In this document: piece by piece, positions 1,537-37,545 of the stretch | How the letters are laid out: the number at the start of each line of letters is the position of its first letter | How positions within the stretch are numbered: the stretch's first letter is position 1 | Source: Bacteroidota bacterium | Lineage (GTDB): Bacteria > Bacteroidota > Bacteroidia > Bacteroidales > WCHB1-69 | Assembly (NCBI GenBank): GCA_019135895.1 | Contig: JAGVVH010000380.1 | Coordinates: 1 to 39,332, forward strand | DNA: 39,332 nt | Direction: 5' to 3' | Translations under genes and position numbers: made by a program | Notes under the pieces: generated by a model | What the model saw: the letters and a program-made list of their open reading frames with translations, nothing else | Database searches by the model: none | What the model was told of the DNA's origin: nothing

Positions 1537-3290
1537 CAGCAATTTCAAACATTGAATTTTCCCCAGGAACTACAATAACAAGTGCTTGGTTGAATGGTGT
1601 TAATGATGCACTAAACAATGTAGTATCTGACATAACAAGTTCAACTGCTAGAACATTAACAAATAAGGCATTAGATCTAGTTTCCATCAAAGATTATGGT
1701 GTTATTGGAGATGGGTCTACTGATGATACCTCTGCAATTAACACTGCATTATCATTGTTTGCAAATACTAATAAATATTTATTTATGCCAGCAGGTACTT
1801 ATAAAGTATCTTCTACCATTACAATACCAAATAAAACAGGTCTTATAGCTAATGGAGATGCAATACTTTATGCAACCTCTGCTGGATTTTCAAATACAGT
1901 ACCAACAACTCATTATACTAGTACATCTCTAGTAGTAAATATGAGTGGTCTAACATCCGCTCCATATACACCATATTATAATCAAAAATTAATTGGTATT
2001 AAAATTGAATATCAATTCTTAGAGGGAAGAGTAGTAGATGCTATTGCTAATAGAAATTGTTATAATTCAGAAATAGATCACTGCGAAATCTATAACTTCC
2101 CTCTATGTACTGCAATAGATGCTAGTAGTTTGTTACATGGTTGTAAGATTACTAATAATTATATTCATGATATAAGTACAAATACTAATTTTGGTGGTTC
2201 ATACACATCCGCAGATACTAATTTATATGGTATTGATTTAGATGATAATCGTGTAAATTCTGTTGAAAGTGTCGGAGTTTTAATATCAGGAAATTTCATT
2301 GAAAACTTAAACCATGGAGCTACTTCTATAGCTGCTTATGGTGATCAAGCTGATGGTATCTCTACACAAAAAGGAAAGGGCCATGTTGTTACAAATAATG
2401 TTGTAATTAATGTAAACGAAGGCATAGATACTTATGCAAAATTACAAACCATAAGCAATAATTATTTAAAAAGTAATGATGGATGGGGAATTAAACTAAT
2501 TCATGGCGCTTCCTATAATACTGTTTCAAATAATGTTGTAGAAGATGCTGGCATTGGTGGTATTACATTAGACGGTGGTATTGTTGATCACACACAATAT
2601 AACCTTATTCGTGGAAATATTGTTTATAACGTAGATCCAAATAATACTAACAATGCTTCTTTTGCTACTGGTTGTATAAAGATCGATAATCAAGGTACAT
2701 TTTTTGCAAAAAATAATATATTCTCTGAAAATATACTATATCCAGGAACAAATGGAAATTATAATGTTATTTTAGATAAACCAACACAAGATACTAATAA
2801 TACATTTAAGAATAATTACTTTGCGTCTTCTGGTACAGATGGTACTTGGAATACAGACATTGCTTATCAAGATAATGAACAGGCATTCAGAACTGCTGTG
2901 AAAGTCACTAGAAGTACTACACAATCTATAAATTCTGGTGCATATACTAAAATTCAATTTGATAGTGAATTATTTGATACTAATAGTGAGTTTGATTCTA
3001 CTACTAACTATAGATGGACCTGTGTTACTCCTGGGTACTATAGAGTTTCTGCAAATGTTAGAATGGCTTCTGTAACTGGTTTAATATTAAAACTACAAAA
3101 AAATGGAACTACTGATCTAGTAATCGCCGCCGCACCTTCTGCAACAGCAGATCAAACAGCAGGATGTGGGGATTTAGTTAAATTTACTACAGGAGATTAT
3201 ATAGAAGCTTATGTATTTCATTCAACTGGAGCAGCACGTAACGTTACTGCTGGGCAAGAATGGACACATCTAACTGTTAACGCCATATAA
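1533..3290 (+). CDS. Tailspike, right-handed beta-helix (pectate-lyase-like) depolymerase
   Basis: 585 aa. Residues 1-45 form a short N-terminal anchor region; from about residue 50 the signature SIKDYGVIGDGSTDDTSAIN followed by MPAGTYKVSS is the classic opening of the Pectate_lyase_3 / GH28-type beta-helix fold of phage tailspikes. Many Asn-rich turns (NNVV, NNYL, NNYF) follow through residue 430, as expected for coils of a beta helix. Residues 455-585 look like a C1q/TNF-like jellyroll trimerisation domain (NSGAYTKIQFDSELFDT, PGYYRVSANVRM, LQKNGT). It likely binds and cleaves a host surface polysaccharide; active-site residues are not assigned. It lies directly before the large terminase (ATAATG overlap), away from the other tail genes. 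Confidence 0.85.
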   Translation: MTAISNIEFSPGTTITSAWLNGVNDALNNVVSDITSSTARTLTNKALDLVSIKDYGVIGDGSTDDTSAINTALSLFANTNKYLFMPAGTYKVSSTITIPNKTGLIANGDAILYATSAGFSNTVPTTHYTSTSLVVNMSGLTSAPYTPYYNQKLIGIKIEYQFLEGRVVDAIANRNCYNSEIDHCEIYNFPLCTAIDASSLLHGCKITNNYIHDISTNTNFGGSYTSADTNLYGIDLDDNRVNSVESVGVLISGNFIENLNHGATSIAAYGDQADGISTQKGKGHVVTNNVVINVNEGIDTYAKLQTISNNYLKSNDGWGIKLIHGASYNTVSNNVVEDAGIGGITLDGGIVDHTQYNLIRGNIVYNVDPNNTNNASFATGCIKIDNQGTFFAKNNIFSENILYPGTNGNYNVILDKPTQDTNNTFKNNYFASSGTDGTWNTDIAYQDNEQAFRTAVKVTRSTTQSINSGAYTKIQFDSELFDTNSEFDSTTNYRWTCVTPGYYRVSANVRMASVTGLILKLQKNGTTDLVIAAAPSATADQTAGCGDLVKFTTGDYIEAYVFHSTGAARNVTAGQEWTHLTVNAI

Positions 3291-3454
3291 TGAATGAAAA
3301 AATTAAACTAACTGCTGATATTATTGAAGGATTTGCCTCATCTTGTCTTGTAAAATTCTTTGATGAGGCTTCTCCATTTGCTGATTTCCATAGAGAATGG
3401 TGGGAATTATGTTGCTCTAACGATAAGTTTGTAGCAGTCTGCGCGCCTCGCGGT
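3290..3454 (+). CDS. Terminase large subunit, exon 1 (N-terminus to Walker A)
   Basis: ATG at 3290 overlaps the tailspike stop (TAATG). The 55 codons run to CAPRG, the first half of a terminase Walker A loop, and unspliced translation stops immediately at TAA (3455-3457). The tail SNDKFVAVCAPRG matches the ATPase N-terminus of large terminases. Joined to 4106-5473 the loop becomes APRGHSKST, matching the APRGHxKST form of phage TerL proteins, and the whole protein is 510 aa, a normal TerL size. The ribosome site is weak; translation is probably coupled to the tailspike. Confidence 0.85.
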
Positions 3455-4105
3455 TAATTGATATTACTGGCGCAATATATAAATAAGTAATTTGAATGGC
3501 CGCGATAAAACCCCTCAAATTCGGAGAACTCCAGAACGGACAACCCCGAGCGAAACCAGATTGTTCTGGGACTGTGTAGAGACTAGACGGGGGGCTTAAT
3601 CCTTAAATGATTGGAGGTGTATATGAGCGTTGCTCATGAGGTAGCTTGGGCTGCCGGATTTTTTGATGGTGAAGGTTATGTTACAATTCAATATGGATAT
3701 ACTAAATCCCCTAATGGGAAACGGTATCATCGACATACATTAAGAATTGGAATTAATCATGTGGCTCCTGGTCCTTTGTATGAAATGCAAAGATTGTTTG
3801 GAGGTTCTATAGAAAAGCAAAAAATAGAATCTGTACATGGTAATAGACATCCCCGACACCGTTGGGTTCTAAACTGTAACAATGCGGCAGAAGCATTAAA
3901 ACGAATGATGCCATACTTTAAAAATAAAACACAAGTAGCAGAGTTGGGGTTAGAATTACAAAGAACAATACAAGAAAATAAACAACAAGTTTCAGAAGAA
4001 ACTTTTTTGTATCGTGCAATGTTAAAAGAAAAAATCACACATCTAAATTCATTGGATTAATGAAGGTATAGTCCGACACCTAGAGGAATCTGGGCAAACG
4101 GTAAG
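3455..4105 (+). mobile_element. Group I intron inside the large terminase gene
   Basis: 651 nt. It starts TAATTG directly after an exon U (CGCGGT), the same junction pattern I know from the T4 td intron, and ends in G (GGTAAG) before CATTC, as group I introns require. Core signals: GAGACTAGACGG near 3579-3590 and GGTATAGTCC near 4065-4074, with GACTA (3581-3585) complementary to TAGTC (4069-4073), fitting P7 strands. GC-rich paired segments (e.g. GGAG/CTCC at about 3523-3533) precede it. An endonuclease gene lies in the loop between the core halves. Splicing restores a perfect terminase Walker A reading frame. Boundaries are inferred from frame and rules. Confidence 0.85.
3623..4060 (+). CDS. 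Intron-encoded LAGLIDADG homing endonuclease
   Basis: 145 aa from ATG at 3623, with GGAGG (3613-3617) 5 nt upstream; a TTG at 3611 is in frame but would lie over that site. WAAGFFDGEGYVTI near residues 10-23 is a LAGLIDADG helix followed by the first beta strand, with the acidic residue of the motif (D/E) placed for metal binding. Only one such motif is seen, so the enzyme would act as a homodimer, typical of about 140-aa single-motif enzymes. RHRWVLNCNNAAEALKRMMPYF resembles the second half of the fold. It would cut intronless terminase alleles at or near the insertion site and spread the intron. Confidence 0.85.
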   Translation: MSVAHEVAWAAGFFDGEGYVTIQYGYTKSPNGKRYHRHTLRIGINHVAPGPLYEMQRLFGGSIEKQKIESVHGNRHPRHRWVLNCNNAAEALKRMMPYFKNKTQVAELGLELQRTIQENKQQVSEETFLYRAMLKEKITHLNSLD

Positions 4106-5473
4106 CATTCAAAATCTACTACAATATCTGTAGTTTATACATTGGCTGCTATGCTATTCAGAGAACGAAGATACGCTCTTATAGTAGCTGATACTGAAAC
4201 TCAGGCAAGTTTATTCTTAGGACAAATAAAACAGATTATTAATGAATCTGAAGAAATTCATCAGTTGTTTGGTTTAAAATTAAATGAAAAAAATGAAGTA
4301 GACTTCAAAAAAGACACAGAAACCGACATAATTGTACCATTTCTAGATGGAAAACAATTTAGAATAATGGCTAAAGGCGCAGAACAGAAGCTTCGCGGTC
4401 TATTATTTGATGGTGGAAGACCAGATTTAATCATTATTGACGATTTAATGAATGAAGAACTGGTTATGAACAAGGATCGGCGTGATAAACTACGTAGATG
4501 GGTATATGGCTCACTAATTCCTTGTCGTTCTGAGCGTGGTATCATTCGTTTTGTGGGTACTCCTATGAATTTGGATGATCCTCTTGAGTCTTTAATGCCT
4601 AAAGAGAATGATAAATATACAATTGTAGAAGATCTTAAGGTATGGTCCACTAAAAAACACGGAATGTGGAGATCTGTTAAGTATCGTGCACATAATTCTG
4701 ACTATTCAAAGCTATTATGGCCGAGTAGAAAGACAAAACAAGATTTTATTCAGCTTAGAGATGACTTTATTTCACAAGGCATTCCAGAAGTTTATGCTTG
4801 TGAATATTTATGTAATCCAGTAGATGATTCTATTAGATATTTTAAGAAATCTGATTTACTTGCTTTAACTAAAGAAGATAAACTCAAGAAAGTTAACTAC
4901 TATATAACAGCAGACTTAGCAATTTCAGAAAAAGAACGTGCTGATTACTCTGCGTTTGTAGTTGGAGGTATGGATGAGAATGGTATTTTACACATCAGAA
5001 ATGTTATCAAAGATAGATTACCTGGAGATGAGATTGTAAATACTTTATTATCATTACAAAGAGTATATACTCCACTTGCAGTTGGTATTGAAGACATGCA
5101 GGTGTCTAAATCAATAGGTCCATTCTTAAATAGGGCTATGATCGAAGAGAATACGTTCTTAAATGTCATTCCATTAAAACCTAATAAAACAGATAAGATC
5201 TCACGATCAAGATCTATTCAAGCTAGAATGAGAGCAGGCGCTGTTAAGTTTGATAAAGAAGCAGATTGGTGGCCTGATTTAGAACATGAACTATTGGTTT
5301 TCCCAAGAGGAAAACATGATGATATGGTAGATGCAATTGCTTATCTTGGATTAATGATTGATAAAATCATCGAGGCTCCTACTAGGGAAGAAGTTGCTGA
5401 ACTTGAATATGAAGATGAATTAGAACAATCTGATTTAAACTTACAGGGTAGGAGTGAAATTTGTGGCTACTGA
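4106..5473 (+). CDS. Terminase large subunit, exon 2 (ATPase and nuclease)
   Basis: 455 codons in frame with exon 1 after splicing. HSKSTTISVVYT completes Walker A; GGRPDLIIIDDLMNEE is Walker B with the catalytic acidic residue; VGTPMN fits the coupling (C) motif. The C-terminal RNase H-like nuclease is marked by YITADLAIS (first Asp), IEDMQVS (second acidic) and KHDDMVDAIAYL (last Asp cluster). The protein pumps DNA into the procapsid through the portal and cuts concatemers. An internal ATG at 4142 would produce a fragment lacking Walker A, so splicing seems needed for function. The end overlaps the portal start by 11 nt. Confidence 0.95.
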   Translation, partial: HSKSTTISVVYTLAAMLFRERRYALIVADTETQASLFLGQIKQIINESEEIHQLFGLKLNEKNEVDFKKDTETDIIVPFLDGKQFRIMAKGAEQKLRGLLFDGGRPDLIIIDDLMNEELVMNKDRRDKLRRWVYGSLIPCRSERGIIRFVGTPMNLDDPLESLMPKENDKYTIVEDLKVWSTKKHGMWRSVKYRAHNSDYSKLLWPSRKTKQDFIQLRDDFISQGIPEVYACEYLCNPVDDSIRYFKKSDLLALTKEDKLKKVNYYITADLAISEKERADYSAFVVGGMDENGILHIRNVIKDRLPGDEIVNTLLSLQRVYTPLAVGIEDMQVSKSIGPFLNRAMIEENTFLNVIPLKPNKTDKISRSRSIQARMRAGAVKFDKEADWWPDLEHELLVFPRGKHDDMVDAIAYLGLMIDKIIEAPTREEVAELEYEDELEQSDLNLQGRSEICGY

Positions 5474-35277: not shown

Positions 35278-36015
35278 TTACTTGATTTCTGTCAAGTCTT
35301 TTAAGTTTGGTCCTTCAGAAATTTCTCCGCACATTGGTAAATTCCATTTTACACCTAAACATTTTTCTATATTTCTTGGTAATACTTTAAAACTATCTAA
35401 GAATATTTCTTTTACAATCTCCTTTTCCGATTCAATAACGTCGGCTGAAACACTATCATGTATAGTGCTAATAAGTAAGCTATTAAGCTTATACTTAGAA
35501 AAACGGGACTTAACAGTAGCCCTATACACAGCCATAACATCTGCGCCAAGACCTTGATTAGGGTAGTTAGTAATTTCGTATTCTGAATATTCCATACTAC
35601 CTTGTTTATAATACTTTTTAAATTCATATTCTCTACCAAATGGGGAAGTTAAAATTCCTGTTTCTTTTACTGTATTTATATATTGTTTATGGGTATAATA
35701 AATTCCTTTATATTTATTATAATATTGATCAATAATATCTTGCCAAAATTCTACGCTTGAAGACACAGGTTTAAAGTCCGGATCATATGCATATGCAAAT
35801 GCTGGTCCTCTATAAATCCATCTAAACAAAAAGACTTTTGCAATTAATCTACTTGGTAATGAGAATCGTAATTGGTTTGCTGTATGCATATCATTCTTTT
35901 TAGAATCTTCTGCAACAGCATACCATTCTTCAATACCAATAGGATCTTGACTAAGATATAAATATGTTACCCATGCGGCTCTAGGCTTTTTGCGTCGATG
36001 TTCACAATAGCCATT
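35278..36015 (-). CDS. DNA polymerase (PolA family), C-terminal part; start and motif A disrupted
   Basis: The continuous part encodes WVTYLYLSQDPIG, NDMHTANQLRFSLPSRLIAK (motif B Arg and Lys), FRWIYRG, then ISTIHDSVSADV (motif C His-Asp). This is the fingers and palm of a phage PolA. There is no start codon in this frame until 35889, past motif A. Just before it, a different frame beginning at ATG 36014, with AAGGAGG at 36030-36024, encodes MAIVNIDAKSLE (motif A: catalytic Asp, +5 Glu) and stops after PHG. Removing five bases, CCGCA (35974-35978), would give DAKSLEWVTYLYLSQD. Either the sequence has errors, the gene is inactive, or expression is unusual. Coordinates include the open upstream frame. 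Confidence 0.7.
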   Translation of the reverse strand, partial: NGYCEHRRKKPRAAWVTYLYLSQDPIGIEEWYAVAEDSKKNDMHTANQLRFSLPSRLIAKVFLFRWIYRGPAFAYAYDPDFKPVSSSVEFWQDIIDQYYNKYKGIYYTHKQYINTVKETGILTSPFGREYEFKKYYKQGSMEYSEYEITNYPNQGLGADVMAVYRATVKSRFSKYKLNSLLISTIHDSVSADVIESEKEIVKEIFLDSFKVLPRNIEKCLGVKWNLPMCGEISEGPNLKDLTEIK

Positions 36016-36405
36016 AGAACTGCCCTCCTTCTCGGCCAGGAGCTTTTCCGAGTTGCTTAACTGAATATCTATTTCTAGTTCTTTGTTTCATAGTTCGTTC
36101 TTTAATATTTTCTAATTGAGTTCCTAATCTTAAATGATTTGGATTACAACATAAAGCATTATCACAATTATGTAATACTAATAATCCATCTGGAATTTCT
36201 CCTTTATATATAATATAAGAAAGTCTATGTGTTTTTATAGCTTCATTTTGAGATATTTTTAAAGCACCATATTTATTATTTCCAGTAATAGCACCTGTCC
36301 AAATCCAACACCCTGTATTTGGCTCGTACATTAATTTATCTTCAAATCTAGAGCGGATTGTATTTCCATGCCAGCTTTTGGCATCAATATTTATAATCAT
36401 TAGAA
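35968..36405 (-). repeat. Imperfect motif A duplication flanking the HNH gene
   Basis: Copy 1 (about 36405-36366) reads TTCTAATG, then codons for INIDAKS, then GGCATGG. Copy 2 (about 36019-35969) reads TTCTAATG, then codons for IVNIDAKS, CTAGAG and CGCATGG. The protein reading is the same but codons differ (ATT GAT GCC versus ATC GAC GCA), so they are not a recent exact duplication. The HNH gene occupies the 386 nt between equivalent points, which is not a multiple of three. Copy 1 is now the N-terminus of the HNH frame. Confidence 0.7.
36014..36400 (-). CDS. HNH homing endonuclease inserted in the DNA polymerase gene
   Basis: 128 aa, start overlapping the polymerase N-part stop (TAATG). GCWIWTGAITGNNKYGALKI, then THRLSYIIYKGEIPDGLLVL and HNCDNALCCNPNHLRLGTQL, is the HNH_3 homing endonuclease pattern (H-R-x-S, L-H-x-C-D-N, C-x-N-P-x-H-L). 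The first 9-10 residues (MIINIDAKS) do not belong to HNH enzymes but equal polymerase motif A. Its stop again forms TAATG. The insert fills nearly all of the gap between polymerase parts, leaving no room for a separate group I intron core. It probably arose by homing into the motif A codons. Confidence 0.88.
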   Translation of the reverse strand: MIINIDAKSWHGNTIRSRFEDKLMYEPNTGCWIWTGAITGNNKYGALKISQNEAIKTHRLSYIIYKGEIPDGLLVLHNCDNALCCNPNHLRLGTQLENIKERTMKQRTRNRYSVKQLGKAPGREGGQF

Positions 36406-37545
36406 TCTACTTTCACACAATTGTTTTGCTAATGGACTCATATTCTGTCCATTGGGATCTGAACTTGCAATACGTCCAGTTACTGCTACACATTGGTTAT
36501 ATGTAGGATGTAATATAGAACCCCAATTCTTTTGTTCTAATTTTTTAGGAAGACCTTTTAAGTATGTTCCATTAAGCTTCTCAAGTTTTGCTCTTTCTAA
36601 TATTAAAGTAATAATCTTTCGTACTTTAGTATTTGGTTTTAGAGAACGTAATGTTGGTTCATCAACTGACCATACCCCACCTTTTTTATATTCAGTACCA
36701 TTCAATGGTTCAACTTGTCTATTAAATGTATAAACTTGTGTTTCATTTTTATAACGAGTTTGACCTAGTTTTTGTCCAGATTTAAAAGTTCCTATTGGAA
36801 TTTTATAAACTCTTTCTATAGTGCCACCATACAATAAAGCAGATTTTTCATCATTAGAATTCCAGTCTAGTTCAAAGTTTATTAATAGATTTAATTTTGT
36901 TTCTAAATCTTTTATTTCTTTGTCTAAAGAGTTACTTAATTCTAAACTTTTCTTTTTATTATATAATAGACCATTCCATTCCATCTCAAGGAGACAAGGT
37001 AGATCTAACATATGTACTTTAAATAGTTTATATTGTTGTGGATTTTCTTTAAATCTTTCTAATTGTGCCTTATATAATTGATATGTTATCTCAACGTCTT
37101 GTTTATTATATTCTAGTAATTCTTCTAATGGTATCTGATCTGTATCAATTCCATTATTCCAGTATTTTTCCTTAATTACATCAATTTTATGACCCAAACC
37201 ATATTTACTACAAGATGTTTCTAAGTCTGGGTATTTCCAAGTTTGTCTAGAAAATAAAAATTCAGCATATTGGCAATCATAAATATAAGTGGAATGCCTG
37301 GGGATAAACCCAAATTCTCTTCGTAACCAAGCCAAATCGAATTTAATATTAAATCCAATAAGTTGATCACTTTTAAGAAGGAGATCATTTATAAGGCCAA
37401 CGTCCCATGGTCTTGAGAAACTGTATGAATTCTCTGAATTTTCTGAAATAACTTTTATTACAATCGAGCATAGTTTGTTGTCCTCATCATAAACATTACC
37501 TTTGTTTTTAGTAGTCGTCTCTACATCCAAGACTGCTGCAACCAA
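36400..37545 (-). CDS. DNA polymerase (PolA family), N-terminal part: 3'-5' exonuclease and start of palm
   Basis: 381 aa from TTG at 37545, preceded by GAGGAGG with about 6-nt spacing. Proofreading motifs: LDVETT (Exo I, Asp7/Glu9), LIGFNIKFDLAWL (Exo II) and EYNKQDVEITYQLY (Exo III, Tyr/Asp). YGGTIERVYKIPIG onward is the thumb, and VTGRIASSDPNGQN is the conserved T-G-R-x-x-S-x-x-P-N-x-Q-N before motif A. The frame ends at CESRF-stop exactly where the motif A region should continue. So proofreading and DNA binding are here while nucleotidyl transfer motifs B and C are on the other side of the HNH gene. Overlaps the previous small gene by 38 nt. Confidence 0.9.
   Translation of the reverse strand: MVAAVLDVETTTKNKGNVYDEDNKLCSIVIKVISENSENSYSFSRPWDVGLINDLLLKSDQLIGFNIKFDLAWLRREFGFIPRHSTYIYDCQYAEFLFSRQTWKYPDLETSCSKYGLGHKIDVIKEKYWNNGIDTDQIPLEELLEYNKQDVEITYQLYKAQLERFKENPQQYKLFKVHMLDLPCLLEMEWNGLLYNKKKSLELSNSLDKEIKDLETKLNLLINFELDWNSNDEKSALLYGGTIERVYKIPIGTFKSGQKLGQTRYKNETQVYTFNRQVEPLNGTEYKKGGVWSVDEPTLRSLKPNTKVRKIITLILERAKLEKLNGTYLKGLPKKLEQKNWGSILHPTYNQCVAVTGRIASSDPNGQNMSPLAKQLCESRF

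Follow-up and report, generated by a model that had tools for sequence, protein, structure and literature searches.

In this study, we found that the Walker A codons of a phage large terminase gene (terL) are very probably split by a mobile group I intron with a LAGLIDADG homing gene, which would splice and home into intron-less terL (about 94% in our estimate). Splicing, DNA cleavage and homing are predicted from sequence. The gene lies in the window, the whole 39,332-nt stretch of DNA analysed here. This contig, C355, comes from a binned metagenome assembly and carries a tailed phage, with terL, portal, PolA, RNR, ThyX and endonuclease I. An uncorrected annotation would call this phage terminase truncated and without its ATPase motif.

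Results

Interruption of terL in the Walker A codons

The features of the locus are listed in Table 1. Exon 1 of terL ends with CGC GGT, which is followed by an in-frame TAA (3449-3457). The first-pass annotation had claimed that unspliced terL stops at a TAA right after CAPRG, and that APRGHSKST and a TerL of 510 aa are restored when 3454 is joined to 4106. The stop was seen at 3455, and a 510-aa protein containing CAPRGHSKST was obtained from 3290-3454 plus 4106-5473. The insertion lies between Gly55 and His56 of TerL, in the Walker A motif as had been proposed. Both the Walker A ATPase (APRGHSKST) and the RNase H-like nuclease are whole in the spliced TerL (PF17289, phrog_38). An intron-less homologue, L081, matched the spliced TerL in one continuous stretch over residues 6-510 with 67% identity. 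The terL genes of L082, L083 and L085 were also continuous at the insertion point, as was that of L084 from residue 50 onward.

Table 1. Features of the interrupted terL gene (window positions).
Feature	Positions	Strand	Description
terL exon 1	3290-3454	+	55 codons, ATG at 3290, ends ...CAPRG, last base U; spliced translation
P1 5' strand (exon)	3448-3454	+	UCGCGGU; splice-site U-G pair
Group I intron	3455-4105	+	651 nt, UAAUUG...GGUAAG, in-frame UAA as first codon; RF00028, P1/P10, core covariation
P10 strand of guide	3491-3498	+	UUUGAAUG; pairs with 3' exon CAUUCAAA (4106-4113)
Internal guide sequence, P1 3' strand	3499-3505	+	GCCGCGA; covaries with exon
P3 5' strand	3511-3514	+	CCCC; 3' strand GGGG within 3586-3592; read from sequence
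P4-P5	3519-3550	+	AUUCGG ... CCCGAG; P4 covariation
P6a hairpin	3556-3569	+	CCAGA-UUGU-UCUGG
P7 5' strand	3581-3585	+	GACUA
P8 5' strand	3596-3602	+	UUAAUCC; partner 4054-4060 at end of endonuclease gene
Shine-Dalgarno-like sequence	3613-3617	+	GGAGG, 5 bases before endonuclease ATG
LAGLIDADG homing endonuclease gene	3623-4060	+	145 aa, in P8 loop; PF00961 27.5 bits, cut-off 23.1
P8 3' strand	4054-4060	+	GGAUUAA; also last codon and stop of endonuclease gene
P7 3' strand	4069-4073	+	UAGUC
P9 hairpin	4079-4094	+	CCUAGA-GGAA-UCUGGG
terL exon 2	4106-5473	+	455 codons and stop, starts HSKST; Terminase_6C nuclease domain, PF17289 and phrog_38

Group I core and splice sites

The covariance search that the first-pass annotation had proposed as a check did find an RF00028 core, although under the gathering score: the match at 3455-3705 scored 35 bits (E 5.9e-7, relaxed setting, 1.2 kb searched), and a scan of the whole window at the gathering threshold (50 bits) found nothing. 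The score is low because the 438-nt endonuclease gene interrupts P8. The alignment was good through the P7 5' strand and then strayed into this gene, which explains the loss. Together with this match, the guide pairing and core helices support the assignment to group I, and the predicted ends were all present: the exon U3454 ahead of the intron, TAATTG at its start and G4105 as its last base.

The first-pass annotation had missed the guide sequence. The P10 and P1 strands of this guide, UUUGAAUG|GCCGCGA (3491-3505), are contiguous and pair with 15 of 15 bases of the ligated exons, eight of these pairs being in P10. The 15-nt antisense of the ligated exons, wobble allowed, occurred once in 78.7 kb (both strands of the window), inside the intron. 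When the first 100 bases of the intron were shuffled 2000 times (mononucleotide shuffling), a guide match of at least 13/15 arose in 4 cases. The 15-base match fixes both splice sites, and the predicted spliced junction is TCGCGGT-CATTCAAA at 3454/4106. An alternative guide, GGCGC (3474-3478), was rejected in favour of 3491-3505 because its P1 contained mismatches.

The core helices P1-P10 were read by hand and their positions were located in the sequence; they include a putative P3 of four G-C pairs (CCCC/GGGG). The P7-like strands named in the first-pass annotation, GACTA and TAGTC, were both present, and P7 is invariant in the family described below. Plain minimum-energy folding of the intron did not recover the pseudoknotted core.

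The same intron family in ten terL genes

We scanned viral contigs with the endonuclease protein and with an alignment. Nine further loci (L001, L002, L003, L094, L095, L101, L103, L105 and L106) were found to carry an intron with the gene at exactly this terL codon, giving ten distinct introns with that of the window; near-copies L096-L099 were grouped with L095, and L102 is the same as L002. The window and its relatives are metagenomic assemblies. TerL identity to the window TerL ranged from 58% down to 29% (L002) and 22% (L106). That the site is a conserved homing target had been a guess; the finding of this intron at one and the same codon of ten distinct TerLs now supports it. RF00028 exceeded its gathering score in the introns of L003 (61 bits), L101 (74) and L103 (52), and at E 0.01 it left those of L102 and L106 unmatched. 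A core-motif scan yielded, among the 80 contigs listed, two terL introns of this family, both previously found.

Each of the ten introns has its own guide matching its exons. In 10/10, the 5' exon ends with the U of GGU, and this U is paired with a guide G in all ten. Intron-less genes have GGG, GCG or GGC at this codon, which for L084 was read from the homologue alignment owing to an offset in the codon listing.

Covariation was examined in a hand-cut alignment (A4) of the exon ends, guide, P4-P7 and P9, covering ten introns and 34 pairs. Standard pairs made up 92.9% of the cells, and two-sided change was found at 19/34 pairs, the covarying helices being P1, P10, P4, P6a and P9. Cells with two-sided change numbered 45, against 14 in shuffles, and none of 500 shuffles reached as high a value. 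When partners were slid, pairing fell to <40%. Paired cells amounted to 84% in P10, 98% in P4, 98% in P6a and 83% in P9, most of the unpaired P9 cells arising because L001 and L103 are one base out of register there. Because the analyst chose the guide positions, P1 and P10 carry a selection for pairing, from which P4, P6a and P9 are free.

Two structural details vary within the family. A pair of hairpins resembling P7.1/P7.2, between P7 5' and P3, was seen by eye in L002, L003, L095, L101 and L105 but was absent from the window (3581-3592), L001, L094 and L103, a possible loss or gain of this subgroup IA hallmark within one family. The terL introns of L001 (1482-2068) and L103 (2864-3458) end in A, whereas G is expected in group I.

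The endonuclease gene inside the intron

The LAGLIDADG gene claimed for the intron scored above the Pfam cut-off for PF00961. The P8 3' strand is made up of the last codon and stop of this gene, and thus the end of the protein and an RNA helix share bases. A profile of the ten endonucleases matched I-MsoI best (2.2e-11), and also I-CvuI and I-CreI, over approximately residues 6-117. The frame is open in all ten introns, at 41-56% identity. The motif reads GF[FI]DGEG, in which DGEG, including the terminal acidic residue, is invariant among the ten. Since each chain has one LAGLIDADG motif, the structures of I-MsoI and I-CreI suggest that the endonuclease most likely acts as a homodimer.

The closest relative in a named phage was 32% identical (Streptomyces phage Anedea), and of ten named-phage records matching the endonuclease, none was annotated as a terL intron. 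A genome-collection search with the endonuclease returned short weak matches only. Relatives at 36-40% identity (L107-L109) had no terL match in their surroundings.

Probable horizontal movement

In the TerL tree, the window grouped with intron-less L081 and L082 (100/100). L002 fell outside L001/L003/L103 in this tree (98/97), its TerL being 29% identical to that of the window, but grouped with them in the endonuclease tree (96/96). As the nearest TerLs have no intron and the two trees conflict, horizontal movement of the intron is the simplest reading. Because their branches are long and their rows few, the trees do not tell which way the intron moved or how many times. We also propose, tentatively and at somewhat under even odds, that one intron/LAGLIDADG family targets the TerL P-loop DNA itself, tolerates wobble bases and jumps between terminases down to 22-29% identity, the guide re-fitting each new exon.

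Discussion

The insertion might instead be a free-standing endonuclease gene, with the terminase left split, in two pieces or dead, and no splicing. In the same phage an endonuclease gene does break the DNA polymerase gene, with no intron core detectable there. However, exon 2 of terL has no start codon ahead of the Walker A codons (the earliest one listed is a TTG at 4142), and without splicing neither the guide and P10 pairings of the ten introns nor the covarying core would be expected. We consider this reading very improbable. Less remote, though still unlikely, is a splicing-competent intron whose endonuclease no longer cuts, so that it is inherited vertically for now or was moved by another nuclease. 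The intron is sparse in the collections searched and the endonuclease activity is predicted, which would suit such an element, but the open frame and whole motif in ten introns of 41-56% identity argue against it, as do the tree conflict and the patchy presence.

Inteins are classically found in the P-loop of TerL (PMC5050341). An intein or other in-frame protein insertion is nevertheless ruled out, since the insert opens with the stop codon TAA; in addition, the inner gene starts independently and no intein family matched. An assembly error joining unrelated pieces might be suspected in a contig of a binned metagenome, but it is likewise ruled out, here by nine other, independent loci that carry a homologous intron at this codon.

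For a group I intron that splices and homes, the following course is predicted. The terL transcript would fold into the group I core. The guide GCCGCGA would hold the 5' exon (P1), exogenous GTP would attack after U3454, and the P10 strand would hold the 3' exon during ligation at C4106, which would restore TerL. On unspliced RNA, UAA as the first intron codon would stop ribosomes, and therefore they would not run through into the intron core. The LAGLIDADG protein would be translated from its own Shine-Dalgarno sequence in the P8 loop. Its homodimer may then cut intron-less terL at the Walker A codons, and repair would copy the intron in.

T4 td-type introns have UAA as the first intron codon and a U before the 5' site, and the td intron carries a GIY-YIG gene in P6a. 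The window intron resembles td in both features and in its core, but its LAGLIDADG gene lies in P8. The I-MsoI and I-CreI introns are found in algal chloroplast rRNA genes. The window endonuclease is, like these enzymes, a single-motif LAGLIDADG protein carried by a group I intron, whereas the predicted target of its family is a phage protein gene.

Group I introns in terL are known from LL-H (Lactobacillus) and Moonbeam (Bacillus) (PMC4299906), KASIA (Shewanella) (PMC8541194) and SIOphi (Bacillus; Bastillevirinae) (PMC11878797), and the terL of ICP1 (Vibrio) is also spliced (PMC10448857). Splicing has been demonstrated in KASIA, SIOphi and ICP1; across the three, the methods were RT-PCR, RNA-seq or an assay in vitro. 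The window intron shares the gene and the predicted self-splicing with these five, but differs in its endonuclease from three of them: KASIA carries an HNH gene, Bastillevirinae introns carry a VSR-type gene, and in ICP1 the endonuclease is outside the terL intron rather than inside. In LL-H, the one known terL intron for which the site was compared with Walker A, terL is interrupted after DIIAVWF and Walker A (GGRGSFKS) is whole in exon 1, whereas the window intron lies inside Walker A. The mycobacteriophage inteins TerL1-a and TerL1-b are likewise selfish elements with a homing nuclease in the Walker A codons of TerL, but they splice as protein and the window element is predicted to splice as RNA (PMC5050341). 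TerL1-a lies between Lys and Thr, a few codons from the window intron site (PMC5050341). Our search of open-licence literature found no description of this Walker A terL intron family. While terL group I introns and TerL P-loop inteins are known, this P-loop intron family is apparently undescribed. It adds a well-resolved terL family, in which guide and exon change together across ten loci, to a short list, and makes it possible to test directly how homing nucleases can recognise a site fixed only at the protein level.

Other candidate mobile elements in the phage and assembly

DNA polymerase A of the window phage is encoded as two genes (35278-37545, minus strand). An HNH gene (36014-36400) is inserted into the second of these at the codons of motif A, DAKS|LEW, and no intron core was detectable at this insertion. 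The HNH gene is followed by a recoded second copy, MAIVNIDAKSLE, and by five extra bases, which shift this copy out of frame. A near-identical phage, L178, is without this cassette; L181 and L182 have it with four extra bases.

The assembly (G000) holds further candidate elements. In L087 (contig C457, ~1550-1830), another group I intron, scoring 93.8 bits, seems to lie within the helicase Walker A codons, ARPGLG|KTVLS; if so, the assembly has two P-loops interrupted by an intron. The ribonucleotide reductase gene of L088 (contig C358) seems to carry two elements, one intein-like and the other a group I intron. In L086 (contig C23, 2252-3938, minus strand), two or three group I intron matches were found within 1.7 kb, adjoining an uncharacterised gene.
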